64,000 bases of DNA from NCBI GenBank assembly GCA_949130485.1, contig OX422183.1, positions 29,998,316-30,062,315 on the forward strand, written 5' to 3'. The position numbers and the translations under genes were made by a program. This DNA is from Agelas oroides (taxonomy: Eukaryota > Porifera > Demospongiae > Agelasida > Agelasidae). Of the stretch, positions 18,544 to 53,624 are shown in pieces (the first letter of the stretch is position 1; every line of letters starts with the position of its first letter). The notes beneath the pieces are model-generated. The model was not told the DNA's origin and searched no databases. It worked only from the letters and a program-made list of their open reading frames with translations.

Positions 18544-21500
18544 ATGTATTCCCTAGTGCTTTCCTGCCTCACTCTGCTATCTTGGACAGTCACAGCAAAG
18601 CAGTTCTTTGTCATACCCAGCAGTAACACAAGTTGTCCCAGGGATCCTTGCTACACTCCGACTGATATGGTACAAAACCCATCTCAGTTCTTTGCATCTC
18701 ATCACATTTCTGCCTGGGCTCCACCAAACATACTTCACTGGATATCACACAGTGCTGATCAACAATGTAAGGAACATCTCCATGATTGGTTACAACCATA
18801 ACAATAGCACTATGAACTCAAGGACTGTGATTCACTGTGGAGGATCATTTGGATTCATGTTTAAAAATGTCACCTCACTAGATATAATAAAACTAAGTTT
18901 CTCTTTCTGCGGTGCACGTTTTCCTTTAAACTTCATAGTGTATCCTCACGACTTTGAAACATTGCTCAAAACACCATCCACAAAAGTTTCGAGAGTGACT
19001 TGTACTTCTTGCAAACAGTAAATGTTACCATCTCTGAGGTGGCTATAAGCAATTCCATTGCTGGGAGTTAACATGATTGGAGTTTCAAACATCTTACACT
19101 CTGTATTAAGTGGTAACAAACCAAACTGCTTGCTAATGTTTTTGGACATGCCTTCCATGTCAGATGTCATTTTACCTACTGATCTAAATATCAAGGAAGT
19201 TCAGGCTACTTTTGGAAGTAGACCACGCCAAAAAGGACACCGATATCACCCCACCAAGTATGCTACAGGACTCAGCATTAAACTAGCACAGACCACATAC
19301 AATGTTCACATTTACATAAACAATATTACAACATGTGAAAACATTGGTATGCAAGATGGATGGCATGGCAACCTTCACATTGCAATTGAAAATTGGAAGT
19401 GTCACTGTTCTGTAATCCAGGCAAAACAGATCACAAGCACTAATACACCATGGAGGTATGATGTAGCCAAAATACAGTTACACTATGGTAATAGCTCTTT
19501 GCATACCTGTACCTGCCCAACAGAAACAGCTGAAGACTACATGGTGCACATTTCCAAAAGCCATTTTTGGGGGACAGGATTATCAGTGGAGTCAGACAAG
19601 AAAGAAACATGGTGATGCTAGAGTAAAATTGAAGAATGTTACCATACAAAATTGTACCAATGTCATAGCACTGGATGTGCATAGGTTGTCCATTGATCTG
19701 CAGGATATAACATTTATCTACAATTGCTTAGATGAATACGTTACAGGAATGATAGTAGTTAATAGCAACATCTCACTGTATGGAAGCAATTACTTCACCA
19801 ATAACACTGGAAGGCGAATGTTGCTCTTAATCACAAGCACAATATCTTTCCATGGACATACAAAAATTATTGGTAATGAGGTGGAAATGGGAAGTACAGT
19901 CTATGTCATCAAGTCAACCATTATATTTCAACAAAAAGCAGAATTAGCAGAAAATGAAGGAAAAGCAGGTGGTGCTATAGCTCTATATGAAAACAGTCAA
20001 TTTGTATTTTGGGAACAAAGTAAAATCACTTTTCTGAGAAACAATGCAGAGCAGAATGGTGGGGCTATATTAGCTGATGCTTCCACCATAGTTGTCCAAA
20101 GAGATGCAAACATAACATTCATGGAAAATGCAGGTTATGATGGTGGAGCACTAGCATTGCAAAATGGAGGTACAGTCACACTTGGCTCACACAGTATAAC
20201 TGCCTTCACAAGAAATCATGCTCACCAATTGGATTATGGAGGAGCCCTATATGTGACTAACATTCCAGAAAAAGAAACCTATTTAAAACAATTTATTCCA
20301 TGTTTCTTTCATGCACAACTCGTTTCTCATAACAGACTACAATTTTTGCTTCCAAGTCTGTTGTTTCACAACAATACTGCTGATATTGCTGGAAGCAGTA
20401 TCTATGGGGGATGGGTAGATATATGCAAGGGCACAGGTCCAATATTTGATACTATATTTCACTTTGGAGATGACTCACTGCAATTGTCAGCAGTATCTTC
20501 CAATCCAACAAGAGTTTGTTTATGCACAAATAATCTTCCTGACTGCAGTATAATGTCACAGCCTACCCTGGTAAGACATTTCAAATACCGCGCAGTTGCA
20601 GTTGGACAGAGGTTTGGAACAATACCCTTCACAGTACATACTAGGTTTACTTCAAACAGCCCTATTGATCAACCACAAATAAAATCATTGTAGGAAGCAC
20701 AAAAAGTCAAAGGAACATGTACAAATCTGATGTACACCATCTTTTCCCAGAATCATAGCAATGTTATGATATTGAGAAGTCAACAAGATTAATGTTCCAG
20801 AAAACTACGAAGAGAATGCTTCTGATGAGGTGTTGAAAGCAGTACTCTTCCAATTCACAGATGTTCGTGTGCACATTACGCTGCATCCTTGCCCACTGGG
20901 GTTGTATTGCACAACTCTTCATGCACTTGTCACTCCCAACTACAACAACATGGAATAAACTGCAGCTTGACACCCAGACAATCAACAGACAATCATTAAT
21001 GTGGATCAATGCAACATTAACAAATGGTTCACAGAATGGAATCCTAGTACATGATCACTGCCCATTTGATTATTGTAAGCCTGAGAGTTTTGATCTTGAC
21101 TTGGAGGACCCAGATGAGCAGTGTGCATTCAATCGCTCTGGCATCCTCTGTGGAGCATGTCAGTGCAACCTCAGTCATGTCTTTGGAACATCTGCATGTA
21201 GGGAGTGCTCAAGTCTGTGGGCCCTGCTTTGGGTTCCAGTCATTGGCTTAGCTGGGATAGCTCTAGTGGTGCTATTGATTGTACTAAACCTCACTGTATC
21301 TGTGGGAACAATCAATGGTCTCATCTTCTATGCTAACACAGTGAGAGCCAACCATGCTACTTTCTTCCCTCCCAACACAAGCAACTCATTCCTCAGCTGG
21401 TTCATAGCCTGGATCAACCTAGACCTCGGTATTGAGACCTGTTTCTACAATGGACTAGATGCCTATGTCAAGACATGGCTACAGTTTGTTTTCCCACTCT

Positions 21501-22399
21501 ACATCTGGTTCTTGGTCATGATCATCATAGTACTGAGCCACTATTTTACGCTTGCAGCAAGGCTGAGTGGAAGAAATGCAGTGCCGGTCCTGGCGACACT
21601 GTTTCTCTTATCTTATACCAAGCTACTTCGGATAATCATCACTGTATTCCAATCAACTCCGCTTGAGTATCAGTCTGATAACTCTGTGAGAAAGGTCTGG
21701 CTCTATGATGGAAATGTTGACTACTTAGTAGGCAAGCACATTCCGCTCTTCATAGCTGCTCTGCTCCTACTCTTCATCTCCTTGCCCTACACAGCCATCC
21801 TCATTTTCATCCAATACCTCCAACACAGGTCCAGTTACAGAGTGCTGTTTTGGGTAAAGAAACTGAAGCCACTCTTTGATGCATACACTGGACTCTACAA
21901 AGACAGGCATCGCTACTGGACTGGACTACTCCTGCTAGGTTGCATTGCACCTGACATCAACTTTCTAGCAATCGTCTTAACAGTGCTCTCTCTGTTCATG
22001 CATGTTGTACTCTTTGGCACTGTCTACAAGACATGGTCTCTGAATGTCATTGAATACTCCAATATCATCAACCTTGGTGTATTGTCATCTACCACATTCT
22101 ACACCAAAGTTGCTGGAAAAGGACAAGCAGGAGTTGTGTATGCCTCTGTCAGTGTTGCTTTTACTCAATTCATTATCACTGTTGCATTTCATGCACTAAA
22201 AAGGTCTTCACATCATTGTAATTGGATTGTTGTGAACATAGTAAGGAAATTGACAGTTAAAGTATCTAAAATCGGGTCAGTTCTAAAGAAGTTTGTCTGC
22301 AAGCAGAAAATCCCTCAGCATGACACTCAGCCCAGAGTACACCTTGCCAGGATTGAACTGCGCGAATCACTGCTGGGATACTGCTCTGAATTTAACTAG
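18544..22399 (+). pseudogene. Frameshifted beta-helix / multi-membrane-span receptor-like gene
   Basis: The gene has no introns. It opens with a signal peptide (MYSLVLSCLTLLSWTVTA). The ectodomain then passes through several reading frames. Frame changes fall near 18700, 18990, 19050 and 19590, and a stop at 20691 plus at least one shift precede about 20940. The part at 19600-20500 has repeated GGAI/GGAL and FxxN motifs (AGGAIALYENSQ, NGGAILADAS, DGGALALQNG) typical of Pmp-like right-handed beta helices. The long 3' frame (to 22399) holds a cysteine-rich module (C67, C72, C88, C97, C100, C102, C113, C116 counted from 20861) and then about seven hydrophobic segments (residues about 119-147, 205-230, 238-263, 293-320, 353-390 in one or two spans, 424-447) and a basic tail. 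I read it as a surface receptor or channel family member of unknown ligand. The frameshifts could be real decay or sequence errors; the 3' third is intact. Confidence 0.7.
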
Positions 22400-35504: not shown

Positions 35505-36183
35505 ACCCTACACCAGAACAATAGTTGCACTAATGCAAACTACATATGAGCAAGAAGCTGTGGGAATGGGAAGCCCAAAAACGCATACCCTCCGTTTGTG
35601 CAATCAACGCACAAAGAGGTACGAGTCTGTAAATCGTTCCACCTCCACCGTCGCCGTATTGTATCGGCAATGGAAATTCGCGCAAATTCTCGGTAAACCC
35701 TACCCAAGAAGAATAGTTGCACTAATGCAAACTACATATGAGCAAGAAGCTGTGGGAATGGGAAGCCCGAAAACGCATACCCTCCGTTTGTGCAATCAAC
35801 GCACAAAGCGGTACGAGCCTGTAAATCGTTCCGCCTCCACCATCGCCGTATTGTATCGGCAATGGAAATTCGCGCAAATTCTCGGTAAACCCTACCCAAG
35901 AAGAATAGTTGCACTAATGCAAACTACACATGAGCAAGAAGCTGTGGGAATGGGGAGCCCAAAAACGTAAACCCTCCGTTTGTGCAATCAACGCACAAAG
36001 CAGTACGAGCTTGCAAATCGTTCCGCCTCCTCCATCGCCGTATTGTATCGGCAATGAAAATTCGCGCAAATTCCCGGCAAACCCTACCCCAGAACAATAG
36101 TTGCACTAATGCAAGCAACATATGAGTAAGAAGCTGTGGGAATGGGGAGCCCAAAAACGCAAACCCTCCGTTTGTGCAATCAA
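35505..36183 (+). repeat. 192-bp satellite, plus-orientation block, part 2
   Basis: About three and a half units between the 2.5-kb element and the truncated LINE, in phase with the left side once the element is removed. Confidence 0.95.
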
Positions 36184-38397
36184 GTGTGTCATGTATTGAC
36201 TTGGCCCTAGTCTCTAACCTGTCACAGCTAAGGAAGTGTGAAGTTATTCCACCATTAACAGATTATGGTCATGGACACTCTGGACTCCAGGTTAGTATGA
36301 GCTGGAAGGATGTTAAGAGATCCGCTGTTAATGGAAATGGAAAGAGAACTGTCTGGAAATATGCCCAGGCTGATTTTACAAAGGCCTGTTCTCTGATCGA
36401 AGCTACCAATTGGGAATCACTACTTACTGGAGATGTGAATCAGGCCTTGGCCAACTGGGAAGCTAAGTATATGGAAATTATGGAACTATGCATTCCGAAG
36501 AAGTCTCTCCCAAAGCGGAGAAATCTGCCATGGCTGACAAAGGAGCTGACTAAAGGTATAAGGAAAAGAAATGTCCTCTACCGGCGTGCAAGACGTAGTG
36601 GTAATAGCTTGCTATTTGATCGATATAAAGAGCAAAGGAACAAAGTTGTAAATGAATTATGCAGATCCAAGAGTCATTTTTTCAGAAGTTTTAATCCCTC
36701 CAATCCAAAGCAGTTTTGGAAGATTGCCAAGCTGTTAAACAAAAGCAGTTCATCCATTCCATCATTGGTTAAAAATGGCTACACTGCAACCACTGACTCT
36801 GACAAGGCTACTATGCTAAATAGTTTCTTTTCTGAATGTTTCAACACAGCTCAACCACCATTGTCGATAAATCAGGAGGAACCTTTGAGCTACTTAGAAC
36901 CATCCAACTTTGAATCCATTGAAGACCTATTATGCACCGAAGATGAAGTTTATGAGATGATTGTATCTCTGGATACCTCCAAAGCTAATGGGTCCGATGG
37001 CATCTCTGCAAGAATGCTCAAAGGTACAACTCATAGCATCACCCCAGTACTAACTCGCTTGTTTAACATGTCAATAGAGTCTGGAATATTTCCAGTGGAA
37101 ACTCTCATCAGTTGTTCCAATTCCAAAAGGCGGTGACCATTCAAATCCTTCAAATTATAGACCTATCTCCCTCTTATCAGTCATTAGTAAGATGCTTGAG
37201 CGACATGTCTACTACTTGATCACAGAGCACTTGTCTTCAGATCATCCCCTTGCCAACACTCAATGGGGATTCCAATCAGGAAAAAGCACTGTGACTGCAC
37301 TATTAACAGCTACATATGACTGGTTTGCAAAATTAGAAGCAGGCAAAGAAGTTTGCTCAGTGTTTTTTGACCTGAAAAAGGCTTTTGATTCTGTGCCACA
37401 CAGGGAACTTGTTGAGAAACTTGTAAGTTACACATTAGCCCAGTTGTTCTGAAATGGATAAGAAACTATCTGACCAACAGACACCAGAAAGTCGTGATTG
37501 GCGGTGAGGAATCTAAAGTTATCTCAGCTACATCAGGAGTGCCTCAGGGCTCTGTCTTGGGCCCCTTGCTATTTCTCATCTATATTGATGACGTGACAAG
37601 ACTTCCTCTCTCTGATGGTACCCAGTTAGTACTTTATGCCGACGATATGCTACTTTACAGGAAAATTGACTGTCCTGAGGATTACATTGTATTGCAAAAT
37701 GACATCAACATGGTTAACAACTGGGTCAAAGGCAACTATCTCACTTTCAATGCATCTAAGTGTAAGTACATGGTCATCTCTCGTAGAAGACAAGGCTACT
37801 GTCATCCACCTGACCTGCTTGATGACTTGTGCCTGGAGAGGGTTGAAAGTTTTAAGTACCTGGGGATTCTTCTAAGTTCGGACTTGTCATGGTCAAAACA
37901 TATTGAATCAATTTGTACCAAAGCTCGTAAGTTACTAGGGCTTCTTTATCGTAGATTTTATAAGTATGCAGAACCACCAGCATTACTTCAACTGTATCAA
38001 TCACTGGTAAGACCCCACCTAGAATATGCAAGTGATGTTTGGGACCCCCACCTACTTAAAGACAAAACACTTATTGAAAACGTACAAAAATTTGGTCTAA
38101 GGATTTGTGCCAAACAGTGGGATCTAGGCTACAACGAACTTCTGTCTAACTTTGCAGTCTCTACACTTCAAAATTGTATACAACCTTATCGTTTTTCCTC
38201 CCTCCATTTTTGTACCACGCCAGAGCAGAACTAGCTCTAATGCCTATCTTCAACCTTTTGCGCACACAAACTCTTTTTTGCACTCTTTTGTTCCTAGTAC
38301 TATTTCATTGTGGAATTCTTTACCTAGTAATGTCACTAGTACACATACACTCCCTATCTTTAAAACCTATATACATGCACTAAATTTGTTTTCATAG
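36184..38397 (+). pseudogene. Broken endonuclease-reverse transcriptase ORF of LINE copy A
   Basis: Reading frame segments at 36174-37136, 37192-37452, 37494-38234 and 38152-38397 are in alternating frames, so at least three frameshifts break the protein. Visible parts are the tail of the APE endonuclease (SCIDLALVSNL...TDYGHGHSGL), then RT motifs NGSDGISARML, FFDLKKAFDSVPH, SGVPQGSVLGPLLFLIYIDD and YADDMLLYRK, then VRPHLEYASDVWDP and the C-terminal region. In function it would nick target DNA and copy element RNA. This copy is inactive. Confidence 0.85.
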
Positions 38398-39517: not shown

Positions 39518-39753
39518 TATTATACGGCGAAGGTGGAGGCGGAACGATTTGCAGGCTCGTACCGCTTTGTGCGTTGATTGCACAAACGGAGGGTTTGCGT
39601 TTTTGGGCTCCTCATTCCCACATCTTCTTACTCATATGTTGCTTGCATTAGTGCAACTATTGTTCTGGGGTAGGGTTTGCCGGGAATTTGCGCGAATTTT
39701 CGTTGCCGATACAATACTGTGATGGTGGAGGCGAAACGATTTGCAGGCTCGTA
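39518..39753 (-). repeat. Inverted copy of the LINE's own left flank
   Basis: This 236-base segment is the reverse complement of 39122-39357, differing at two positions only. It shares private variants (aagatgtgggaatgaggagcc, ggcaacgaaaattcg). It joins the plus-orientation satellite on its left through the two bases ac, and the 5' end of LINE copy B on its right. Confidence 0.9.
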
Positions 39754-39754
39754 G

Positions 39755-40996
39755 ATGACTTCGCAAATGCCCTTTCAAACGTCTTCTCAAGCGTCTTCCT
39801 CCCAAGCGTCCTCCAGAGTGCTCTCTGAAGCGTCCTACCAACCAGTGTCGACCTCCCAAACATCCTCCCAAGTGCTGGCGCTGGATGGTGAAAACGGTAC
39901 AGGAGAGGCAGAAGCCCAACCGCAAATGCTAGTGGAGCTAGACGAACTGGGTGAATACATCGAGGTGAGCAGCGGTCATTTAGTGGGTAGGCTCTATTTA
40001 GAGAAGTTTGAACTATCCAAGAAAAGGAACGTAGCGAAGTGTGTCCTTGTTGAAGATAAATGGCTGAGCCTTGGAGAGTTTGAAACAAAGAGTGGAAAGA
40101 AGACCAAAAACTGGAGAAAGTCTGTAAAGCATGGTGGCGTGCCTCTTAATGACTTTATCACTGAAACTTTCCCTTGTAAACCACCCACTACTAGGTTGTA
40201 TACTCAAGCTAGCAACCAAGGGGTGTCACCTAGTCAGAGCTCAGCCCCGCACCCCTGGCCTCCAGAGCTTACAACCGCTTTCAGCAAGCTAGAACAAAGG
40301 CTAACTGCATCTATTGAAGATGCCATACAAAAAGCAATGGGCCCAATGCACAGACTGATTAAAGAGGAGGTTAGCACTTTAACCCTGCAGTTAAATGAGC
40401 TGCAGAAAAGGGTGGACAAGTTGGAAGCACAAGAAATGGGTGAACAAAGTACAGATCAGCAACCTGTTAGCCATGAAGATTTAGACCCCAAAATAGGGAT
40501 GTTAGAGACGCAGGTCAAACAACTTTCAACGGCTTTTAGTGTACATAACCGGAAAGTGGAAGCTGAAGAACGGGAGGCCAGAAAGACTTCAGTGATCATT
40601 GCAGGGCTTGAGGAAGGTGAAGATGAGAATGCAGTCGAGGCAGTAAAGACGCTGTTCACAACGAGACTTGACATACAAGAACCTAAATTTGACACAGCGA
40701 ATCGCCTAGGCAGAAAACAAAGCGACAAGCATCGGCCAATAAAGGTTAAGTTCTCTTCCCTGCAAGAAAAGAGGCTCGTTATGGAGAGGAAACAGTCCCT
40801 GAAACATACGGGGATATATATAAACCATGACCTGACAAAACTACAACAAGAAAGAAGTAAAAAGTTGCGAGAGGCAAAAAAGGTTGCTATGCAAAGATAC
40901 CAAAACCAGGAAGTCAGGATTGTAAAAGGGAAGCTGTGTGTGGATGGACAACCCCTATCAACAGAAACTTTCCTAACACTAGGTGGTAATATATAG
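39755..40996 (+). CDS. LINE ORF1 protein with SAND-like domain, coiled coil and RRM/CTD
   Basis: 413 residues. Residues 1-60 are S/T/Q-rich. Residues about 67-137 match the SAND pattern: IEVSSGHLVGRLYLEKF, AKCVLVEDKWLSLGEFE, then KNWRKSVKHGGVPLNDF, which aligns with the KDWK-type DNA-binding core (KxWKxSIRxGG). Residues about 172-275 have heptad-like hydrophobic spacing (LEQRLTASIEDAIQKA, LNELQKRVDKLEAQ), as in trimeric ORF1p coiled coils. Residues about 276-413 resemble the L1-type RRM and C-terminal domain (SVIIAGLEEGE, NRLGRKQSDKHRPIKVKF, GIYINHDLT). ORF1 proteins bind element RNA. A SAND domain would add DNA or chromatin binding and might guide target choice (inference). The ATG follows an in-frame TAG in the satellite, so the start is secure only for this copy. 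The frame is intact. Confidence 0.85.
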   Translation: MTSQMPFQTSSQASSSQASSRVLSEASYQPVSTSQTSSQVLALDGENGTGEAEAQPQMLVELDELGEYIEVSSGHLVGRLYLEKFELSKKRNVAKCVLVEDKWLSLGEFETKSGKKTKNWRKSVKHGGVPLNDFITETFPCKPPTTRLYTQASNQGVSPSQSSAPHPWPPELTTAFSKLEQRLTASIEDAIQKAMGPMHRLIKEEVSTLTLQLNELQKRVDKLEAQEMGEQSTDQQPVSHEDLDPKIGMLETQVKQLSTAFSVHNRKVEAEEREARKTSVIIAGLEEGEDENAVEAVKTLFTTRLDIQEPKFDTANRLGRKQSDKHRPIKVKFSSLQEKRLVMERKQSLKHTGIYINHDLTKLQQERSKKLREAKKVAMQRYQNQEVRIVKGKLCVDGQPLSTETFLTLGGNI

Positions 40997-41002
40997 GATA
41001 AA

Positions 41003-41015
41003 AGCCGGGGTGGCT
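41003..41015 (+). promoter_or_regulatory. Intercistronic hairpin, matched by 44540-44552
   Basis: agccggggtggct lies seven bases after the ORF1 stop and eight before the ORF2 ATG. Its exact reverse complement lies at the ORF2 stop. Each copy can also form a small AGCC/GGCT stem. It could serve ORF2 re-initiation or RNA recognition (inference). Confidence 0.5.
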
Positions 41016-41023
41016 CAAAAAGC

Positions 41024-42328
41024 ATGATTGCCAAGAATCTCAAAGCAAGTGATCTAAGCTTCTACATACTGAATATACATGGATTTACAATGGATAAATT
41101 TAGTGAATTGTTGCAATCTGTTTTTCATGTATATGATTTCGTCTGTCTGTCTGAAACTTGGATGAAAACCCCAGAAAAGCCAAATGTAGATGTGAAAGAC
41201 TATGTATGTATCAACAAACCAAGGTCACGAATTAACAAAAGAGCGAAAAGAGGTTCAGGTGGAATTTTGCTGTACATTCACAACAGAGTAATGGAGAATG
41301 TAGAAATTCTCAATGACCACGAAAGTGATGACAGATTATGGATTAAATTTCGGAGTAGAACTTTAACTGGTGGGGAAAGTGACACCTTCATCTGCTTTTG
41401 CTACTTGCCTCCAGCCGATTCTACATCAACACTTAATGAAGGCTCACACCAACTGGCCTTTGAGAGGGAGGTTGTAAGGTATTCATTAAAAGGAAATGTC
41501 TTGATATGTGGAGATATGAATGCACGTACAGGCATACTGAAGGACTACGCTGAGAATGACTCGGACCTCCCAGTGGATATCCCTTTAAACTACACTATTG
41601 ACCAGGAGGTCCCTCGGCAGTCAAAGGATACAAGTGTAAACCCCCAAGGAAGAGTTTTGTTGGATTTGTGCATTAGTGCTAGAATGAGAATAGTTAACGG
41701 CAGAACCAATGGTGACTCTGCAGGAGATTACACTTGTTATACACCCAGAGGCTGTAGCGTGGTGGACTATCACATCGTGTCAGCAGATCTATTACCAAAG
41801 ATAGTAAATTTCCGTATTGGTACCCTCCCAGATCACTCTGACCACTGCCCACTGATTTTCAATGTACCAGTATTTGTAAGACCAGCAAGACAGCTATTAG
41901 AGGAACAGTTCCCAGACACAAACATAAACAAACACACATTGTCAAGACCATTAAAATGGGATAAAGAGGTAAAGGAGAAATTCTCAATATACCTGCAGCA
42001 AAGCTCCACCATAGAAAAGCTGTCTCATTTGAGACAAACGCTCAAAAGGAGCAGCCCCAATGAAAGTGCACAGGAACTTACAGCATTTCTGACAACAGCT
42101 GTAGACAACTGCGGGCATAATGAAAATACCAATAGAAGGAAAAAACATCCATCGAGATACCGAAGGAAAAGCACAAAATTCCCCACCAACAATTGGTTTA
42201 ATGAAGAATGCAAAGTTCAAAAGCGATTGGTAAATGGTATCAAGAAAATGTTCCTGCAGCAGCCAAATGATACAAACTTAAGAGAGCAATACTTCAAAGA
42301 AAAGAAAGTTTACAAAAAAAATAATTAA
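41024..42328 (+). CDS. LINE ORF2, apurinic-type endonuclease part
   Basis: 434 codons up to a frameshift stop. Endonuclease/exonuclease/phosphatase landmarks are visible: N17 (ILNIHG), E44 (LSETW), D164/N166 (CGDMNAR), D248 (VVDYH) and S272-D273-H274 (SDHCPL). These are the metal-binding and catalytic positions used to nick target DNA for target-primed reverse transcription. ORF2 starts 27 bases after the ORF1 stop. The frame is lost in an eight-A run at 42314-42321; the RT continues 17 bases later in another frame. It could be a decayed base, a sequencing slip, or (less likely) a programmed slip site. Confidence 0.9.
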   Translation: MIAKNLKASDLSFYILNIHGFTMDKFSELLQSVFHVYDFVCLSETWMKTPEKPNVDVKDYVCINKPRSRINKRAKRGSGGILLYIHNRVMENVEILNDHESDDRLWIKFRSRTLTGGESDTFICFCYLPPADSTSTLNEGSHQLAFEREVVRYSLKGNVLICGDMNARTGILKDYAENDSDLPVDIPLNYTIDQEVPRQSKDTSVNPQGRVLLDLCISARMRIVNGRTNGDSAGDYTCYTPRGCSVVDYHIVSADLLPKIVNFRIGTLPDHSDHCPLIFNVPVFVRPARQLLEEQFPDTNINKHTLSRPLKWDKEVKEKFSIYLQQSSTIEKLSHLRQTLKRSSPNESAQELTAFLTTAVDNCGHNENTNRRKKHPSRYRRKSTKFPTNNWFNEECKVQKRLVNGIKKMFLQQPNDTNLREQYFKEKKVYKKNN

Positions 42329-42344
42329 AGCCAGAAAACGTGTA

Positions 42345-44540
42345 GTGGAGACAAACTTCCATAAAAATCTTCTTACTTCCCACAACCAAAACCCAAGAGA
42401 CTTCTGGAAGACTGTTAACCACCTGAGGGAGAAAGACAAACATATTGAAACAGGAGTAAATCCCAAAGAGCTGCTGTCACACCTCCAAAACTTAAACATG
42501 AAAAGAAGTAATGAACGGAATGAGCCACCAAATGCCTCAAGGGTATGTGTACCACACCTTGATAGAGAAATATCAGTGGCAGAGGTGGAAGAGGTACTAC
42601 ATAAACTAAAAGTGAATAAAGCACCTGGAGAGGATGGAATACCACCAGGAGTATTCAAAGCCCTAGATAACACCCTAATTGAAATGCTGGCTATCCTATT
42701 CAACAATGTCATGAGATCTGGAGAATACCCAAACTGTTGGTCCACAGGTATTATATGCCCATTACATAAATCAGGTCCAAGAGATGACCCGAACAACTAC
42801 CGAGGGATAACTCTCTTAAATGTAATGGGCAAGCTGTTCACAGCTATCCTATGTGATAGAATAACACAATGGGCAACTGCAAGACAACTCTTACCAGAAA
42901 CACAGTTTGGTTTCCGCAAAAATAGAAGAACTACAGATTGTTTATTTATAGTGAACACACTAATAGAGAGAGCATCCTGTGAGAAAAGCACACTCTTTTT
43001 GTGCTATGTTGACTTCAGAAAAGCATTTGACTCAGTTGATCATTACTGTTTGTGGAAAAAGCTGGTTCAACTGGGAATTAGTCAACAAACTTTGACAATC
43101 CTGCAGTCAATGTACTCAAAAGCCATGTCAAGTCTGAAACTGTCAAATCACGAGGTCACAGACCAGTTCCGTTGTGAAGTGGGAGTGAGGCAAGGCTGCA
43201 ATCTGAGCCCTCTTCTTTTTAGCCTGTTCATCAGTGGACTAGAGGCTGAACTTGCGAAAAACAAAATGGGAACCAGACTGTGGAACAGACCCATTGATCT
43301 ACTAATGTATGCCGATGATATCGTGTTGATGTCTTCAAGTGAGGAGGGGTTGAGAAAACATCTCAGATCACTGGAGGAATTCTGTGAAGAGTGGAAATTA
43401 GAGGTAAATATAGACAAAACCAAAGTATGTGCTTTTGGGAAAAAGCCAAGATTACTGTCACCTTTCTCATTTGAGGGTATTAACCTGGAAATGGTACAGG
43501 AATACAAATATTTGGGAGTGTGGCTCTCAACAAACCATGTTTATAATAAAGCTAAGAAAGCCCAGGCCAACCAAGGGAAGAAAGCAATATTTGCACTACA
43601 AAGATTACTTGTAAAGTTAAAGTACCCACCCATCACCATTGCACTGAAGCTATTTGATGTTATGATACTGCCAGTACTATCTTACGGTTGCGAACTATGG
43701 GGACATGTAGTGGATCCAGAGCTGGAGGCAACAGAAATGCATTTTCTAAAATATATTTTAAACTTGCCACCAAGTGCAACAAACATGGCCGTACGTGGAG
43801 AGCTCGGACAGCTTCCCCTTCATCTCCTGTGGAGAGAAAAGATATTGTGTTACTGGAATAGACTCTGCTCAGAGGAGATTCCAGATCTCCTCAGAGAGGC
43901 CTTTCATCTATCCACTTGGATGCATCAAACCGGTAAAACCACCTGGGTAACAAAGGTAAAAGAGCTATTTGACAAGGCTGGTATGTCGTTTGCATTCACT
44001 CCACAGGGATGTGGACGAAGAGAAATAGAGCAAGTAATGATACGCTACAGAGATCAGTTTATTCAGCTCTGGAACAGCGAACTTAGCAGACAGACTAGCA
44101 AGAGAGGTGAAGCAGGAAACAAACTACGAACTTACAGACTGTTCAAGTCCCGATTCGAACTGGAGAGTTACCTCTCTCAAGTCAAGGTAGCAAAGTATCG
44201 CATAGCTCTCACCAAGTTGAGAGTGAGTTGTCACAGGCTTCAGATAGAACTGGGAAGGTACCACAAACCATGCTCCATCCCCCCAGAACAGAGACTTTGC
44301 AAATCATGCAATTGTATCGAGGATGAAGTCCATTTCGTATGTGTCTGTCCTGTTTATAACGACCTGAGGGATGAACTGTACACTATCATTGTTAAATCTA
44401 ACCCAAGCTTCATGTATCTCTCCACTAGAGACAAATTTATCCGTCTGTTAACATCTAAAAACACAGCTGTTGTGAACTCCTTAGCCAAGTTTGTACATTT
44501 AGCCTTTAAATTACACAGTTCATACTTTATTGACTTATAA
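42345..44540 (+). CDS. LINE ORF2, reverse transcriptase and zinc-knuckle part
   Basis: 731 codons; the ATG at 42345 is not the true start, because the protein continues from the endonuclease segment across a one-base shift. RT blocks in order: KAPGEDGIPPGVFK, NNYRGITLLNVMGKL, QFGFRKNRRTTDC, motif A YVDFRKAFDSVDH (D223), VRQGCNLSPLLFSLF, the catalytic YADD (322-325), LEVNIDKTKVCAFG and YKYLGVWLS. A C-terminal CxxC...H...C knuckle (about 651-670, CKSCNCIEDEVHFVCVC) follows, as in many LINE ORF2 proteins. It copies element RNA at the nicked target. No other break is seen, so the copy is young. Confidence 0.92.
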   Translation: METNFHKNLLTSHNQNPRDFWKTVNHLREKDKHIETGVNPKELLSHLQNLNMKRSNERNEPPNASRVCVPHLDREISVAEVEEVLHKLKVNKAPGEDGIPPGVFKALDNTLIEMLAILFNNVMRSGEYPNCWSTGIICPLHKSGPRDDPNNYRGITLLNVMGKLFTAILCDRITQWATARQLLPETQFGFRKNRRTTDCLFIVNTLIERASCEKSTLFLCYVDFRKAFDSVDHYCLWKKLVQLGISQQTLTILQSMYSKAMSSLKLSNHEVTDQFRCEVGVRQGCNLSPLLFSLFISGLEAELAKNKMGTRLWNRPIDLLMYADDIVLMSSSEEGLRKHLRSLEEFCEEWKLEVNIDKTKVCAFGKKPRLLSPFSFEGINLEMVQEYKYLGVWLSTNHVYNKAKKAQANQGKKAIFALQRLLVKLKYPPITIALKLFDVMILPVLSYGCELWGHVVDPELEATEMHFLKYILNLPPSATNMAVRGELGQLPLHLLWREKILCYWNRLCSEEIPDLLREAFHLSTWMHQTGKTTWVTKVKELFDKAGMSFAFTPQGCGRREIEQVMIRYRDQFIQLWNSELSRQTSKRGEAGNKLRTYRLFKSRFELESYLSQVKVAKYRIALTKLRVSCHRLQIELGRYHKPCSIPPEQRLCKSCNCIEDEVHFVCVCPVYNDLRDELYTIIVKSNPSFMYLSTRDKFIRLLTSKNTAVVNSLAKFVHLAFKLHSSYFIDL

Positions 44541-44552
44541 GCCACCCCGGCT
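44540..44552 (+). promoter_or_regulatory. 3' hairpin matching the intercistronic one
   Basis: agccaccccggct overlaps the ORF2 stop and is the exact reverse complement of 41003-41015. With the (att)n tail 20 bases downstream, it makes up almost the whole 3' region. Confidence 0.5.
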
Positions 44553-44590
44553 TCTCTTGTCATTAAAAATTATTATTATTATTATTATTA

Positions 44591-47500
44591 ATATCGGCAC
44601 TGGAAATTCGCGCAAATTCACTGCAAACCCTACACCAGAACAATAGTTGCACTAATGCAAACTACATATGAGCAAGAAGCTGTGGGAATGAGTAGCCCAA
44701 AAACGCAAACCCTCCGTTTGTGCAATCAACGCACAAAGCGGTACGAGCCTGCAAATCGTTCCGCCTCCACCGTCGCCGTATCGTATCGGCAATGGAAGTT
44801 CGCGCAAATTCCCGGCAAACCCTACCCCAGAACAATAGTTGCACTAATGCAAACTACATATGAGCAAGAAGCTGTGGGAATGGGAAGCACAAAAACGCAA
44901 ATCCTCCGTTTGTGCAACCAATGCACAAAGCGGTACGAGCCTTCAAATCGTTCCGCCTCCACCGTCGCCGTATTGTATCGGCAATGGAAGTTCGCGCAAA
45001 TTCCCGGCAAACTCTACCCCAGAACAATAGTTGCACTAATGCAAACTACATATGAGCAAGAAGCTGTGGGAATGGGGAGCCCAAACACGCAAACCCTCCG
45101 TTTGTGCAATCAACGCACAAAGCGGTATGAGCCTGCAAATCGTTCCGCCTCCACCTTCGCCGTGTGATATCGGCACTGGAAATTCTAGCAAATTCCCTGC
45201 AAACCCTACACCAGAACAATAGTTGCACTAATGCAAACTACATATGAGCAAGAAGCTGTGGGAATGGGGAGCCCAAAAACGCAAACCCTCCGTTTGTGCA
45301 ATCAACGCACAAAGCGGTACGAGCCTGCAAATCGTTCCGCCTCCACCTTCGCAGTGTGATATCGGCACTGGAAATTCGAGCAAATTCCCAGCAAACCCTA
45401 CACCAGAACAATAGTTGCACTAATGCAAACTACATATGAGCAAGAAGCTGTGGGAATGGGGAGTCCAAAAACGCAGACCCTCCGTTTGTGCAATCAACGC
45501 ACAAAGCAGTACGAGCCTGCAAATCGTTCCGCCTCCACCGTCGCGGTATTGTATCGGCAATGGAAATTCGCATAAATTCCCGGCAAACCCTACCCCAGAA
45601 CAATAGTTGCACTAATGCAAACTACATATGAGCAAGAAGCTGTGGGAATGGGGAGTCCAAAAATGCAGACCCTCCGTTTGTGCAATCAATGCACAAAGCG
45701 GTACGAGCCTGCAAATCGTTCCGCCTCCACCTTCGCCGTATGATATCGGCACTGGAAATTCGAGCAAATTCCCTGCAAACCCTACACCAGAACAATAGTT
45801 GCACTAATGCAAACTACATATGAGCAAGAAGCTGTGGGAATGGGGAGTCCAAAGACGTAGACCCTCCGTTTGTGCAATCAACGCACAAAGTGGTACAAGC
45901 CTGCAAATCGTTCAGCCTCTACCGTCGCCGTATTGTATCGGCAATGGGAATTCGCGCAAATTCCCGGCAAACCCTACCCCAGAACAATAGTTGCACTAAT
46001 GCAAACTACATATGAGCAAGAAGCTGTGGGAATGGGGAGCCCAAAAACGCAAACCCTCCGTTTGTGCAATCAACGCTCAAAGCGGAACGAGCCTGCAAAT
46101 CGTTCCGCCTCCACCATCGCCGTATAATATCGGCACTGGAAATTCGCGCAAATTCCCTGCAAACCCTACACCAGAACAATAGTTGCACTAATGCAAACTA
46201 CATATGAGCAAGAAGCTGTGGGAATGAGTAGCCCAAAAACGCAAACCCTCCGTTTGTGCAATCAACGCACAAAGCGGTACGAGCCTGCAAATCGTTCCGC
46301 CTCCACCATCGCCGTATTGTATCGGCAATGGAAGTTCGCGCAAATTCCCGGCAAACCCTACCACAGAACAATAGTTGCACTAATGCAAACTACATATGAG
46401 CAAGAAGCTGTGGGAATGGGAAGCACAAAAACGCAAACCCTCCGTTTGTGCAATCAACGCACAAAGCGGTACGAGCCTGCAAATCGTTCCGCCTCCACCG
46501 TCGCCGTATTGTATCGGCAATGGAAGTTCGCGCAAATTCCCGGCAAACTCTACCCCAGAACAATAGTTGCACTAATGCAAACTACATATGAGCAAGAAGC
46601 TGTGGGATGGGGAGCCCAAAAACGCAAACCCTCCGTTTGTGCAATCAACGCACAAAGCGGTACGAGCCTGCAAATCGTTCCGCCTCCACCTTCGCCGTAT
46701 GATATCGGAACCGGAAATTCGAGCAAATTCCCTGCAAACCCTACACCAGAGCAATAGTTGCACTAATGCAAACTACATATGAGCAAGAAGCTGTGGGAAT
46801 GGGGAGCCCAAAAACGCAAACCCTCAGTTTGTGCAATCAACGCACAAAGCGGTATGAGCCTGCAAATCGTTCCGCCTCCACCTTCGCCGTGTGATATCGA
46901 CACTGGAAATTCGAGCAAATTCCCTGCAAACCCTACACATGAAAAATAGTTGCACTAATGCAAACTACATATGAGCAAGAAGCTGTGGGAATGGAGAGTC
47001 CAAAAACGCAGACTCTCCGTTTGTGCAATCAACGCACAAAGCAGTACAAGCCTGCAAATCGTTCCGCCTCCACCGTCGCCGTATTGTATCGGCAATGAAA
47101 ATTCGCGCAAATTCCCGGCAAACCCTACCCCAGAACAATAGTTGCACTAATGCAAACTACACATGAGCAAGAAGCTGTGGGAATGGGGAGCCCAAAAACG
47201 CAAACCCTCCTTTTGTGCAATCAACGCACAAAGCGGTATGAGCCTGCAAATCGTTCCGCCTCCACCTTCGCCGTATAATATCGGCACTGGAAATTCGCGC
47301 AAATTCCCTGCAAAGCCTACACCAGAACAATAATTGCACTAATGCAAACTACACATGAGCAAGAAGCTGTGAGAATGAGTAGCACAAAAACGCAAACCCT
47401 CCGTTTGTGCAATCAACGTACAAAGCGGTACGAGCCTGCAAATCGTTTCGCCTCCACCATCGCCGTATTGTATCGGCAATGAAAATTCGCGCAAATTCCC

Positions 47501-50500
47501 GGCAAACCCCACCCCAGAACAATAGTTGCACTAATGCAAGGAACATATGAGTAAGAAGCTGTGGGAATGGGGAGCCCAAAAACGCAAACCCTCCGTTTGT
47601 ACAATCAACGCACAAAGCGGTACGAGCCTGCAAATCGTTCCGCCTCCACCTTCGCCGTATAATATCGGCACTGGAAATTCGCACAAATTCCCTGCAAACC
47701 CTACACCAGAACAATAATTGCACTAATGCAAACTACATATGAGCAAGAAGCTGTGAGAATGAGTAGCCCAAAAACGCAAACCCTCCGTTTGTGCAATCAA
47801 CGTACAAAGCGGTACGAGCCTGCAAATCGTTTCGCCTCCACCATCGCCGTATTGTATCGGCAATGAAAATTCGCGCAAATTCCCGGCAAACCTTACCCCA
47901 GAACAATAGTTGCACTAATGCAAGCAACATATGAGTAAGAAGCTGTGGGAATGGGGAGCCCAAAAACGCAAACCCTCCGTTTGTGCAATCAACGCACAAA
48001 GCGGTACGAGCCTGCAAATCGTTCCGCCTCCACCTTCGCCGTATAATATCGACACTGGAAATTCGCGGAAATTCCTGCAAACCCTACACCGGAACAATAG
48101 TTGCACTAATGCAAACTACATATGAGCAAGAAGCTGTGGGAATGAGTAGCCCAAAAACGCAAACCCTCCGTTTGTGCAATCAACGTACAAAGCGGTACGT
48201 GTCTGCAAATCGTTCCGTCTCCACCATCGCCGTATTGTATCGGCAATGGAAATTCGCGAAAATTCCAGGCAAACCCTACCCCAGAACAATAGTTGCACTA
48301 ATGCAAGCAACATATGAGTAAGAAGCTGTGGGAATGGGGAGCCCAAAAACGCAAACCCTCCGTTTGTGCAATCAACGCACTAAGCGGTACGAGCCTGCAA
48401 ATCGTTCCTCCTCCACCTTCGCCGTATAATATCGGCACTGGAAATTCGTGCAAATTCCCTGCAAACCCTTCACCAGAACAATAGTTGCACTAATGCAAAC
48501 TACATATGAGCAAGAAGCTGTGGGATGAGTAGCCGAAAAACGCAAACCCTCCGTTTGTGCAATCAACGCACAAAGCGGTACGAGCCTGCAAATCGTTCCG
48601 CCTCCACCTTCGCCGTGAGATATCGGCACTGGAAATTCGAGCAAATTCCCTGCAAACCCTACACCAGAACAATAGTTGCACTAATGCAAACTACATATGA
48701 GTAAGAAGCTGTGGGAATGGGGAGTACAACAACGCAGAGCCTCCGTTTGTGCAATTAACGCACAAAGCGGTACGAGCCTGCAAATCGTTCCGCCTCCACC
48801 TTCACCGTGAGATATCGGCACTGGAAATTCGAGCAAATTCCCTGCAAACCCTACACCAGAACAATAGTTGCACTAATTCAAACTACATATGAGCAAGAAG
48901 CTGTGGGAATGGGGAGCCCAAAAACGCAAACCCGCCGTTTGTGCAATCAACGCACAAAGCGGTACGAGCCTGCAAATCGTTCCGCCTCCACCTTAGCCGT
49001 GAGATATCGGCACTGAAAATTCGAGCAAATTCCCTGCAAACCCTACACCAGAACAATAGTTGCACTAATGCAAACTACATATGAGCAAGAAGCTGTGGGA
49101 ATGGGGAGCCCAAAAACGCAAACCCGCCGTTTGTGCAATCAACGCACAAAGCGGTACGAGCCTGCAAATCGTTCCGCCTCCACCTTAGCCGTGAGATATC
49201 GGCACTGAAAATTCGAGCAAATTCCCTGCAAACCCTACACCAGAACAATAGTTGCACTAATGCAAACTACATATGAGTAAGAAGCTGTGGGAATGGGGAG
49301 TACAACAACGCAGAGCCTCCGTTTGTGCAATCAACGCACAAAGCAGTACGAGCCTGCAAATCGTTCCGCCTCCACCGTCGCCGTATTGTATCGGCAATGG
49401 AAATTCGCATAAATTCCCGGCAAACCCAACCACAGAACAATAGTTGCACTAATGCAAACTACATATTAGCAAGAAGCTGCGGGAATGGGGAGCCCAAAAA
49501 CGCAAACCCACCGTTTGTGCAATCAACGCACAAAGCGGTACGTGCTTGCAAATCGGTCCGCCTCAACCATCGCCGTATTGTATCGGCAATGGAAATTCGC
49601 GCAAATTCCCGGTAAAACCTACCCCAGAACAATAGTTGCACTAATGCAAACTCCATATAAGCAAGAAGCTGTGGGGATGGGGAGCACAAAAACGCAAACC
49701 CTCCGTTTGTGAAATCAACGCACAAAGCGGTACGAGCTTGCAAATCGTTCCGCCTCCACCATCGCCGTATTGTATCGGCAATGGAAATTCGCGCAAATTC
49801 CAGGCAAACCCTACCCCAGAACAATAGTTGCACTAATGCAAACTACATATTAGCAAGAAGCTGCGGGAATGGGGAGCCCAAAAACGCAAACCCACCGTTT
49901 GTGCAATCAACGCACAAAGCGGTACGTGCTTGCAAATCGGTCCGCCTCAACCATCGCCGTATTGTATCGGCAATGGAAATTCGCGCAAATTCCCGGTAAA
50001 ACCTACCCCAGAACAATAGTTGCACTAATGCAAACTCCATATAAGCAAGAAGCTGTGGGGATGGGGAGCACAAAAACGCAAACCCTCCGTTTGTGAAATC
50101 AACGCACAAAGCGGTACGAGCTTGCAAATCGTTCCGCCTCCACCATCGCCGTATTGTATCGGCAATGGAAATTCGCGCAAATTCCCAGCAAACCCTACCC
50201 AAGAAGAATAGTTGCACTAATGCAAACTCCATATTAGCAAGAAGCTGCGGGAATGGGGAGAGCAAAAACGCAAACCCTCCGTTTGTGCAATCAACGCACA
50301 AAGCGGTACGAGCTTACAAATCGGTCCGCCTCCACAATCGCCGTATTGTATCGGCAATGGAAATTCGCGCAAATTCCCGGCAAACCCTACCCCAGAACAA
50401 TAGTTGCACTAATGCAAACTCCATATAAGCAAGAAGCTGTGGGGATGGGGAGCACAAAAACGCAAACCCTCCGTTTGTGCAATCAACGCACAAAGCGGTT

Positions 50501-53500
50501 CGAGCTTACAAATCGTTCCACCTCCACCATCACCGTATTGTATCGGCAATGGAAATACGCTCAAATTCCCTGCAAAACCTACCCCAGAACAATAGTTGCA
50601 CTAATGCAAACTACATAAGAGTAAGAAGCTGTGGGAATGGGAAGCCCAAAAACGCAAACCCTCCGTTTGTGCAAACAACGCACAATGCGGTAGGAACTTG
50701 TAAATCGTTCCGCCTCCACCATCGCCGTATTATATCGGCAATGGAAATTCGCGCAAAGTCCCTGCAAACCCTACCCCAGAACAATAGTTGCACTAATGCA
50801 AACTACATATTAGCAAGAAGCTGTGGGGATGGGCAGCCCAAAAACGCAAACCCTCCGTTTGTGCAATCAACGCACAAAGCGGTACGAGCTTACAAATCGT
50901 TCCACCTCCACCATCACCGTATTGTATCGGCAATGGAAATACGCTCAAATTCCCTGCAAAACCTACCCCAGAACAATAGTTGCACTAATGCAAACTACAT
51001 AAGAGTAAGAAGCTGTGGGAATGGGAAGCCCAAAAACGCAAACCCTCCGTTTGTGCAAACAACGCACAATGCGGTAGGAACTTGTAAATCGTTCCGCCTC
51101 CACCATCGCCGTATTATATCGGCAATGGAAATTCGCGCAAAGTCCCTGCAAACCCTACCCCAGAACAAAAGTTGCACTAATGCAAACTACATATTAGCAA
51201 GAAGCTGTGGGAATGGGCAGCCCAAAAACGCAAACCCTCCGTTTGTGCAATCAACGCACAAAGCGGTAGGAACTTGTAAATCGTTCCGCCTCCACCATCG
51301 CCGTATTATATCGGCAATGGAAATTCGCGCAAAGTCCCTGCAAACCCTACCCCAGAACAAAAGTTGCACTAATGCAAACTACATATTGGCAAGAAGCTGT
51401 GGGAATGGGCAGCCCAAAAACGCAAACCCTCCGTTTGTGCAATCAACGCACAAAGCGGTAGGAACTTGTAAATCGTTCCGCCTCCACCATCGCCGTATTA
51501 TATCGGCAATGGAAATTCGCGCAAAGTCCCTGCAAACCCTACCCCAGAACAAAAGTTGCACTAATGCAAACTACATATTGGCAAGAAGCTGTGGGAATGG
51601 GCAGCCCAAAAACGCAAACCCTCCGTTTGTGCAATCAACGCACAAAGCGGTACGAGCTTGCAAATCGTTCCGCCTCCACCATCGCCGTATTGTATCGGCA
51701 ATGGAAATTCGGGCAACTTCTCGGCAAAACCTACCCAAGAACAATAGTTGCACTAATGCAAACTACATATTAGCAAGAAGCTGCGGGAATGGGGAGCCCA
51801 AAAACGCAAACCCAACGTTTGTGCAATCAACGCACAAAGCGGTACGTGCTTACAAATCGGTCCGCCTCAACCATCGCCGTATTGTATCGGCAATGGAAAT
51901 TCGCGCAAATTCCCGGCAAACCCTACCCCAGAACAATAGTTGCACTAATGCAAACTCCATATAAGCAAGAAGCTGTGGGGATGGGGAGCACAAAAACGCA
52001 AACCATCCGTTTGTGCAATCAACGCACAAAGCGGTTCGAGCTTGCAAATCGTTCCGCCTCCACCATCGCCGTATTGTATCGGCAATGGAAATACGCTCAA
52101 ATTCCCTGCAAAACCTACCCCAGAACAATAGTTGCACTAATGCAAACTACATAAGAGTAAGAAGCTGTGGGAATGGGAAGCCCAAAAACGCAAACCCTCC
52201 GTTTGTGCAAACAACGCACAATGCGGTAGGAACTTGTAAATCGTTCCGCCTCCACCATCGCCGTATTATATCGGCAATGGAAATTCGCGCAAAGTCCCTG
52301 CAAACCCTACCCCAGAACAAAAGTTGCACTAATGCAAACTACATATTAGCAAGAAGCTGTGGGGATGGGCAGCCCAAAAACGCAAACCCTCCGTTTGTGC
52401 AATCAACGCACAAAGCGGTACGAGCTTACAAATCGTTCCACCTCCACCATCACCGTATTGTATCGGCAATGGAAATACGCTCAAATTCCCTGCAAAACCT
52501 ACCCCAGAACAATAGTTGCACTAATGCTCAAACTACATAAGAGTAAGAAGCTGTGGGAATGGGAAGCCCAAAAACGCAAACCCTCCGTTTGTGCAAACAA
52601 CGCACAATGCGGTAGGGAACTTGTAAATCGTTCCGCCTCCACCATCGCCGTATTATATCGGCAATGGAAATTCGCGCAAAGTCCCTGCAAACCCTACCCC
52701 AGAACAAAAGTTGCACTAATGCAAACTACATATTAGCAATGAAGCTGTGGGAATGGGCAGCCCAAAAACGCAAACCCTCCGTTTGTGCAATCAACGCACA
52801 AAGCGGTAGGAACTTGTAAATCGTTCCGCCTCCACCATCGCCGTATTATATCGGCAATGGAAATTCGCGCAAAGTCCCTGCAAACCCTACCCCAGAACAA
52901 AAGTTGCACTAATGCAAACTACATATTGGCAAGAAGCTGTGGGAATGGGCAGCCCAAAAATGCAAACCCTCCGTTTGTGCAATCAACGCACAAAGCGGTA
53001 GGAACTTGTAAATCGTTCCGCCTCCACCATCGCCGTATTATATCGGCAATGGAAATTCGCGCAAAGTCCCCTGCAAACCCTACCCCAGAACAAAAGTTGC
53101 ACTAATGCAAACTACATATTGGCAAGAAGCTGTGGGAATGGGCAGCCCAAAAACGCAAACCCTCCGTTTGTGCAATCAACGCACAAAGCGGTACGAGCTT
53201 GCAAATCGTTCCGCCTCCACCATCGCCGTATTGTATCGGCAATGGAAATTCGGGCAACTTCTCGGCAAAACCTAACCCAAGAACAATAGTTGCACTAATG
53301 CAAACTACATATTAGCAAGAAGCTGTGGGAATGGGGAGCCCAAAAACGCAAACCCAACGTTTGTGCAATCAACGCACAAAGCGGTACGTGCTTACAAATC
53401 GGTCCGCCTCAACCATCGCCGTATTGTATCGGCAATGGAAATTCGCGCAAATTCCCGGCAAACCCTACCCCAGAACAATAGTTGCACTAATGCAAACTCC

Positions 53501-53624
53501 ATATAAGCAAGAAGCTGTGGGGATGGGGAGCACAAAAACGCAAGCCATCCGTTTGTGCAATCAACGCACAAAGCGGTTCGAGCTTGCAAATCGTTCCGCC
53601 TCCACCATCGCCGTATTGTATCGG
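44591..53624 (+). repeat. 192-bp satellite, plus-orientation block, part 4
   Basis: About 47 units. Local amplification units are evident. 49459-49833 and 49843-50217 repeat at 384 bases. Segments near 50579-50793 recur at 50963, 52115 and 52499 with near identity. 51187-51560 repeats a single type. Two small indels (52530, 52617) break phase locally. Confidence 0.95.

Follow-up and report, generated by a model that had tools for sequence, protein, structure and literature searches.

SAND domains in the ORF1 proteins of LINE retrotransposons of the sponge Agelas oroides and their possible part in satellite insertion

Introduction

Chromoviruses are LTR retrotransposons with a chromodomain at the C-terminus of the integrase, which is thought to steer their insertion, and R1, TRAS/SART and Utopia are sequence-specific LINEs of repeats. 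Sp100/Sp140, DEAF1 and GMEB are host transcription or nuclear-body proteins that are not known to possess an RRM-type ORF1 or a reverse transcriptase, and the ORF1 protein (ORF1p) of L1 is not known to have a SAND domain. The contribution of ORF1 to target choice in LINEs is an open question, and the published chromatin-type addition to it is a PHD finger. According to the main text of Metcalfe and Casane (2014; PMC4120745), where the word “SAND” is absent, type IIC ORF1s of the L2_6 and CR1_5 subgroups carry an N-terminal PHD for which a role in targeting is suggested, within a modular and reticulate evolution, and the authors knew of no functional study of this domain in LINEs as of 2014. 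Regarding SAND domains, PMC4274154 reports binding of DEAF1, through its SAND, to paired CpG half-sites 6–11 nt apart and suggests that oligomerisation helps this binding; GMEB likewise binds CpG half-sites in pairs.

Here, we describe LINE families of Agelas oroides in which a SAND domain is joined to ORF1. The nearest published architecture that we found is the type IIC ORF1 of PMC4120745, which joins an N-terminal chromatin-associated domain to an ORF1 of the L1 type (coiled coil, RRM and C-terminal domain), a type to which the present ORF1 may also belong; the added domain is PHD there and SAND here. The ORF1 SAND has a KDWK-like core in common with the SAND family of Sp100/Sp140, DEAF1 and GMEB. 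As in chromoviruses, a domain that would read chromatin is carried by the element itself, although those are LTR elements and their domain is located in the integrase. The preliminary description of the locus knew of no report of this architecture, and we found none among open-licence papers, Repbase lying outside this search.

The window element

The element is an APE-type non-LTR retrotransposon (LINE). On one strand of the window (the whole 64-kb stretch analysed, C1:29998316-30062315), an ORF1 with a SAND domain is followed by an ORF2 with an APE endonuclease and a reverse transcriptase, after which the element has a short 3′ end with its (ATT)n tail (Table 1). No second copy of the element was found inside the window, and Rfam and tRNA searches gave no matches.

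Table 1. Features of the window element and its surroundings, and SAND-bearing LINE families of the genome
Feature	Position in the window, or loci	Strand	Basis or remark
Satellite beside the 5′ end	39522..39753	-	inverted relative to the surrounding array
ORF1, 413 aa here, 5′-truncated	39755..40996	+	open frame, stop ending at 40996; frame begins farther upstream in two other copies
SAND domain (PF01342), KNWR core	39950..40168	+	Pfam, PDB and genome-wide matches
Possible coiled-coil stretch of ORF1p	40331..40444	+	sub-threshold Pfam matches to leucine-zipper/trimerisation models
RRM and C-terminal domain of ORF1p	40499..40993	+	RRM profiles, single-sequence model, weak fold matches
ORF2, APE-type endonuclease part (PF03372)	40997..42328	+	Pfam E 1.8e-8
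14 nt just past the ORF1 stop	41002..41015	+	perfect inverted match to 44540-44553
ORF2, reverse transcriptase part (PF00078)	42282..44540	+	Pfam E 3.9e-40; one frame break relative to the endonuclease part
14 nt at the ORF2 stop	44540..44553	+	inside the predicted 3′-end hairpin
A-rich, then (ATT)n tail	44565..44591	+	
192-bp satellite array hosting the insertion, 3′ side	44592..53624	+	
Family A	window, L022, L023, L030		core KNWR
Family B	L010-L014, L020, L021, L029, L033		core KKWR
Family C	L015-L018		core KNWK
Family D	L019		core KNWK
Family E	L024		core KNWR
Family F	L025, L031, L032		core KNWR in L025; lost in decayed L031
Family G	L026-L028		core GKWR

Two copies elsewhere, L022 (on C9) and L023 (on C13), are 99.7% and 99.9% identical to the window element over 4838 bp, and both extend farther upstream. 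Since their frame continues there as MAL[R/S]AEAEEFRSTSLVGSQLSSQ-MTSQMPF..., the window copy is 5′-truncated and ATG 39755 is not the start of the element's own ORF1; the TAG directly before this ATG spans the junction of flank and element. From stop to stop, ORF1 comprises 441 codons in L022 and 437 in L023, with a start at MAL[R/S]AEAEE, and ORF2 is a single frame of 1180 codons in both, so that a programmed frameshift at the break seen in the window copy was rejected. Both ORFs are thus open in these two copies. The family is dispersed, with 23 3′ ends and mostly (ATT)n-like tails, and the window copy and L036 are examples of 5′ truncation.

The perfect inverted pair of 14 nt joins the ORF1/ORF2 junction with the 3′ end, each member lying at a stop codon. 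Both sites are able to form hairpins with complementary loops, GGGGU and ACCCC; the 3′ hairpin is stabler than chance (z -3.9) and the junction hairpin is not (z -0.2). An inverted 14-mer somewhere in the element is not rare, appearing in 55 of 200 shuffles with palindromes counted.

The SAND domain and the remainder of ORF1

The preliminary description had placed a SAND domain at about residues 67-137 of ORF1, with KNWRKSVKHGG as its KDWK-like core, and an HMM search agrees on both the family and the position. In Pfam, PF01342 scores 53.6 bits over residues 66-138, where the cut-off is 22 (E 1.8e-14), and the fragment searched by itself reaches E 1.3e-15. The nearest solved chains are those of human Sp100-B (1h5p, 1.8e-7) and Sp140 (8j70, 5.9e-7; phmmer against PDB), whose alignments run through KNWRKSVKHGG, the basic core being present here as KNWR. 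The single-sequence structure model of the domain is poor (pLDDT 53), and Pfam gave no PHD finger match in ORF1 up to E 1. The in-frame fusion of a SAND domain to the RRM-type ORF1 of a LINE is confirmed.

The rest of the protein had been called an ordinary ORF1p, a description that profile and fold matches support weakly and Pfam does not: outside SAND, no match to Transposase_22, RRM or CCHC was obtained in ORF1. A profile built from five RRMs of this genome retrieved a single PDB chain at E<=10, 2ldy (E 0.013), whose record title reads “ORF1 codes for a 40 kDa product” and which we take to be an L1 ORF1p. The single-sequence model (pLDDT 58) orders the RRM as beta-alpha-beta-beta-alpha-beta and predicts a helix-strand-strand-helix after it, where a C-terminal domain would lie. 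Searched with Foldseek and VIA, the RRM model gave weak matches (E 0.13 upward) to common RRM and ferredoxin-like folds, with L1 ORF1p chains at ranks 2-4 (E 0.14-0.38). By this single profile match and these weak fold matches, the RRM may be of the same kind as that of L1 ORF1p (2ldy, and 2ykp and 2ykq of the human L1 ORF1p trimer), although the proteins are too distant in sequence for Pfam Transposase_22. In the whole genome PF02994 gave no match, which is uninformative as the controls were also without one. Preceding the RRM, residues 193-230 show leucine-zipper-type matches below threshold (Pfam; CLZ at E 0.017, under its own cut-off), pointing to a possible coiled coil.

SAND-bearing LINE families across the genome

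A search of the assembly (259.3 Mb, 141 contigs) recovered 26 SAND matches, reading exons singly, so that intron-split host SANDs may escape it. Twenty-five of them, window included, are in LINE contexts. The remaining one (L009) looks like a host gene from its sequence features, with a KDWK core, a CxxC motif and GRPPK, and neither ORF2 nor RRM. ORF2-like sequence lies downstream of all the LINE-context SANDs except L033. Copies combining SAND and RRM, for which the preliminary description had proposed a search, proved to be common: an ORF1-type RRM is present at E<0.01 in 23 of the 25, according to a genome RRM profile built from families A (window sequence included), B, C and G and from L034. 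The exceptions are L019 and L024, that is, families D and E, which both look decayed, so that the lack of an RRM there is uninformative; family F, outside the profile, still scores 4e-21 to 3e-20.

We grouped these copies into about seven families from ORF1 and ORF2 comparisons (Table 1). The reverse transcriptases of the other families are mostly 25-31% identical to that of the window. Over ORF2, A shares 25-27% identity with B, C and D, and D shares 22-23% with B and G, against 45% between C and G. SAND identity across families is 24-45% (decayed L030 and L031 excluded), and the Pfam SAND scores of families B-G are 47.9-61 bits. In a tree of 10 SAND sequences, Sp100 with Sp140 was the only supported grouping. 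The K-x-W-[RK] core is found in A, B, C, D, E and the F copy L025; its first K is absent in G, and the B copies L020 and L021 are one residue short in it. No relatives were found in viral contigs. Between SAND and RRM, the C and G ORF1s (L015-L018, L026-L028) have a similar intervening region, P[VL]LAFVKAFRL..., with no Pfam match above cut-off.

Since the domain is common to about seven families, it is not host sequence picked up solely by the window copy, and a one-off capture was rejected. The related idea of a chance or recent fusion, a LINE copy having inserted next to a host SAND exon that plays no role in the element, finds nothing in its favour apart from the single copy in the window; with 25 LINE-context SANDs in such diverged families, and long open frames on several contigs, we consider it refuted by these copies.

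An optional and maintained N-terminal module

Relatives without SAND occur in the same genome. An RRM query from family C found 78 genomic places, with SAND within 3 kb at 13 and not at 65. Counting only C-like RRM frames that run for 340 aa or more without a stop, 9 have a SAND within 3 kb and 21 have no SAND match within that distance, as judged by frame length, score and SAND proximity; at least 7 of these 21 resemble copies of one family, with equal frame length and near-equal score. L034, an A/B-like ORF1 with a decayed 5′ part, yielded no SAND. Because of these SAND-less relatives, SAND is better seen as an optional N-terminal module than as one element's recent capture. The proposed capture of a SAND domain thus stands as a real fusion and fails as a recent acquisition by one element. 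The module may have been gained or lost through shuffling, as may the PHD in ORF1s of type IIC.

Purifying selection acts on SAND in family B. Restricted to the aligned SAND and RRM regions, SAND dN/dS is 0.05 (L012-L011), 0.06 (L013-L011) and 0.18 (L012-L010). The three pairs that involve L029, a partial copy, have values of 0.24, 0.32 and 0.97 based on few changes, and the SANDs of L012 and L013 differ by one synonymous change and nothing else. RRM dN/dS is 0.22-0.53 in the six pairs that remain when L012-L013 is set aside. A difference between SAND and RRM was seen in a single pair out of seven (p 0.015), one with L010, whose RRM end is out of frame, and SAND is therefore under about the same constraint as the RRM. 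The safest statement from these sequences is that in several LINE lineages ORF1p bears SAND as an N-terminal module, both optional and maintained.

Insertion into the 192-bp satellite

The window copy had been described as sitting in a satellite array, and this was borne out on both of its sides (Table 1). Allowing up to 2 mismatches, we found 23 3′ ends of family A, 35 of C and 15 of G, and examined the flanks of all 23, of 24 and of 3, respectively, the three of G being its SAND loci. At one C end (L058), a further C 3′ end takes the place of plain flank. In the comparison of insertion sites suggested for the copies, satellite surrounds 6 of the 23 A ends (5 of 10 exact matches), 12 of the 24 C ends and all 3 G ends, the share being counted in these SAND-bearing families only. 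The fetched loci of B (9), D (1), E (1) and F (3) proved free of satellite, as did the fetched A loci L022, L023 and L030. We estimate the satellite at about 2.0 Mb of the C type plus 0.7 Mb of the window type, or 1.0% of the genome, a figure that may miss divergent arrays. With a background of 1.0%, the binomial tail for A is 1e-7 and that for C is 4e-18; a background of 3% gives 5e-5 and 1e-12, respectively.

The insertions are also concentrated within the monomer. Of the 21 satellite junctions, 16 fall at monomer positions 86-100 (3/6 in A, 10/12 in C, 3/3 in G), with a P value of 3e-14 that is too small, as this 15-nt segment was picked after seeing the data. Ten of the 12 C insertions share one nucleotide, position 100, on the same strand. 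Their same-phase flanks have a median identity of 85.6% (45 pairs), against 88.5-90.6% between monomers of one array, and the L015 and L017 elements, 99.2% identical, have opposite orientations relative to the array. Amplification of one C insertion with its array is therefore unlikely (element bodies compared in L015-L018), since the flanks differ to the extent that unrelated monomers do and L017 is oppositely oriented; the C insertions at one target position are consistent with independent events. Repeated insertion at one repeat position is also the habit of R1, TRAS/SART and Utopia, whereas the target of family C is the 192-bp satellite and half of its examined ends lie outside it.

The role of SAND in this bias is where the readings diverge. 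The insertion points have ATT/TAT letters in common with the tail, so that endonuclease and priming can account for the site without SAND. It is a substantial possibility, short of even odds, that the satellite bias of A, C and G comes from endonuclease specificity, tail priming and retention in non-coding arrays, with SAND a passenger as regards targeting: the single nucleotide used by family C fits this, as does the SAND of family B, which is not accompanied by satellite. Satellites may simply retain insertions, and the array around the window element also holds the relic of another LINE, described below. However, the bias is found at the regional scale and not just at the insertion point, with shares in A and C far above about 1%, and A, which belongs to another reverse transcriptase lineage, uses the 15-nt segment of C and G in half of its satellite cases.

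As the B, D, E and F loci show, having a SAND does not suffice for satellite targeting. The same loci would suit a protein-protein or self-association module, acting with nuclear bodies or chromatin proteins or by mimicry of host SANDs and unrelated to DNA choice. The proximity of the ORF1 SAND to Sp100/Sp140 among solved chains and the self-interaction that the DEAF1 SAND also mediates, as PMC4274154 reports, point in this direction. Against it, the basic core is preserved in most families and no partner protein is known here, and we regard this role as somewhat unlikely.

The most likely role of SAND would be that of a DNA-binding arm, because most families retain the core and DEAF1 uses its SAND to bind CpG half-sites. 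We assign a probability of roughly 0.55 to the reading in which these are SAND-ORF1 LINEs with a type II-like, RNA-packaging ORF1p (probable coiled coil, RRM and C-terminal domain) whose N-terminal SAND domain acts as such an arm and aids satellite insertion in A, C and G. SAND would be the part of ORF1p that binds double-stranded DNA, and the protein would oligomerise via its coiled coil, with the RRM and C-terminal domain packaging the element RNA. The several SAND domains presented per oligomer might anchor the ribonucleoprotein (RNP) to chromatin that contains CpGs during nicking by the endonuclease and priming by the reverse transcriptase. In A, C and G, SAND would help to concentrate insertions in the 192-bp satellites, and the exact nick would more likely be set by the endonuclease and tail annealing.

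Several points stand against this reading, among them the lack of satellite in the B, D, E and F loci, the insertion points that endonuclease and priming can explain, the departure of the G core and the residue missing from that of L020 and L021, the dN/dS of up to 0.97 in pairs with L029, the poor SAND model, the weak RRM link to L1 and the weak CpG fit. The hot spot does hold CpGs 8 nt apart (GCCG-TATTGTAT-CGGC), but the fit is suggestive at most, because 35% of the window-type monomer lies within such a pair. The bolder version, a new ORF1 architecture in which a captured DNA-reading SAND, multiplied by the coiled coil, steers the RNP to the CpG satellite, with the A and C/G lineages sharing a hot spot, seems unlikely to us. 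As SAND normally reads DNA sequence, and one genome holds families that have SAND or lack it and that show satellite bias or do not, the targeting question becomes testable by domain swaps. These LINEs also carry and spread the DNA-binding domain of a host regulator.

Other observations concern the arrays and their neighbourhood. The inverted satellite of about 232 bp next to the 5′ end of the window element may be a by-product of 5′-end joining. The copy L036 (C10:7220600-7223400), of family A and truncated within ORF1, is preceded in frame by letters resembling translated satellite, and 4 kb beyond it comes the L040 3′ end, which is surrounded by satellite and whose tail is almost purely A. 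In the window, large frames at 18557-22399, with a PMP repeat match (E 1e-5) and a seemingly multi-span membrane part, are probably one host gene. The array that hosts the element also holds a relic of another LINE (36126-38234), without visible ORF1, which shares 24-27% identity with the SAND families over its C-terminal part of the reverse transcriptase.
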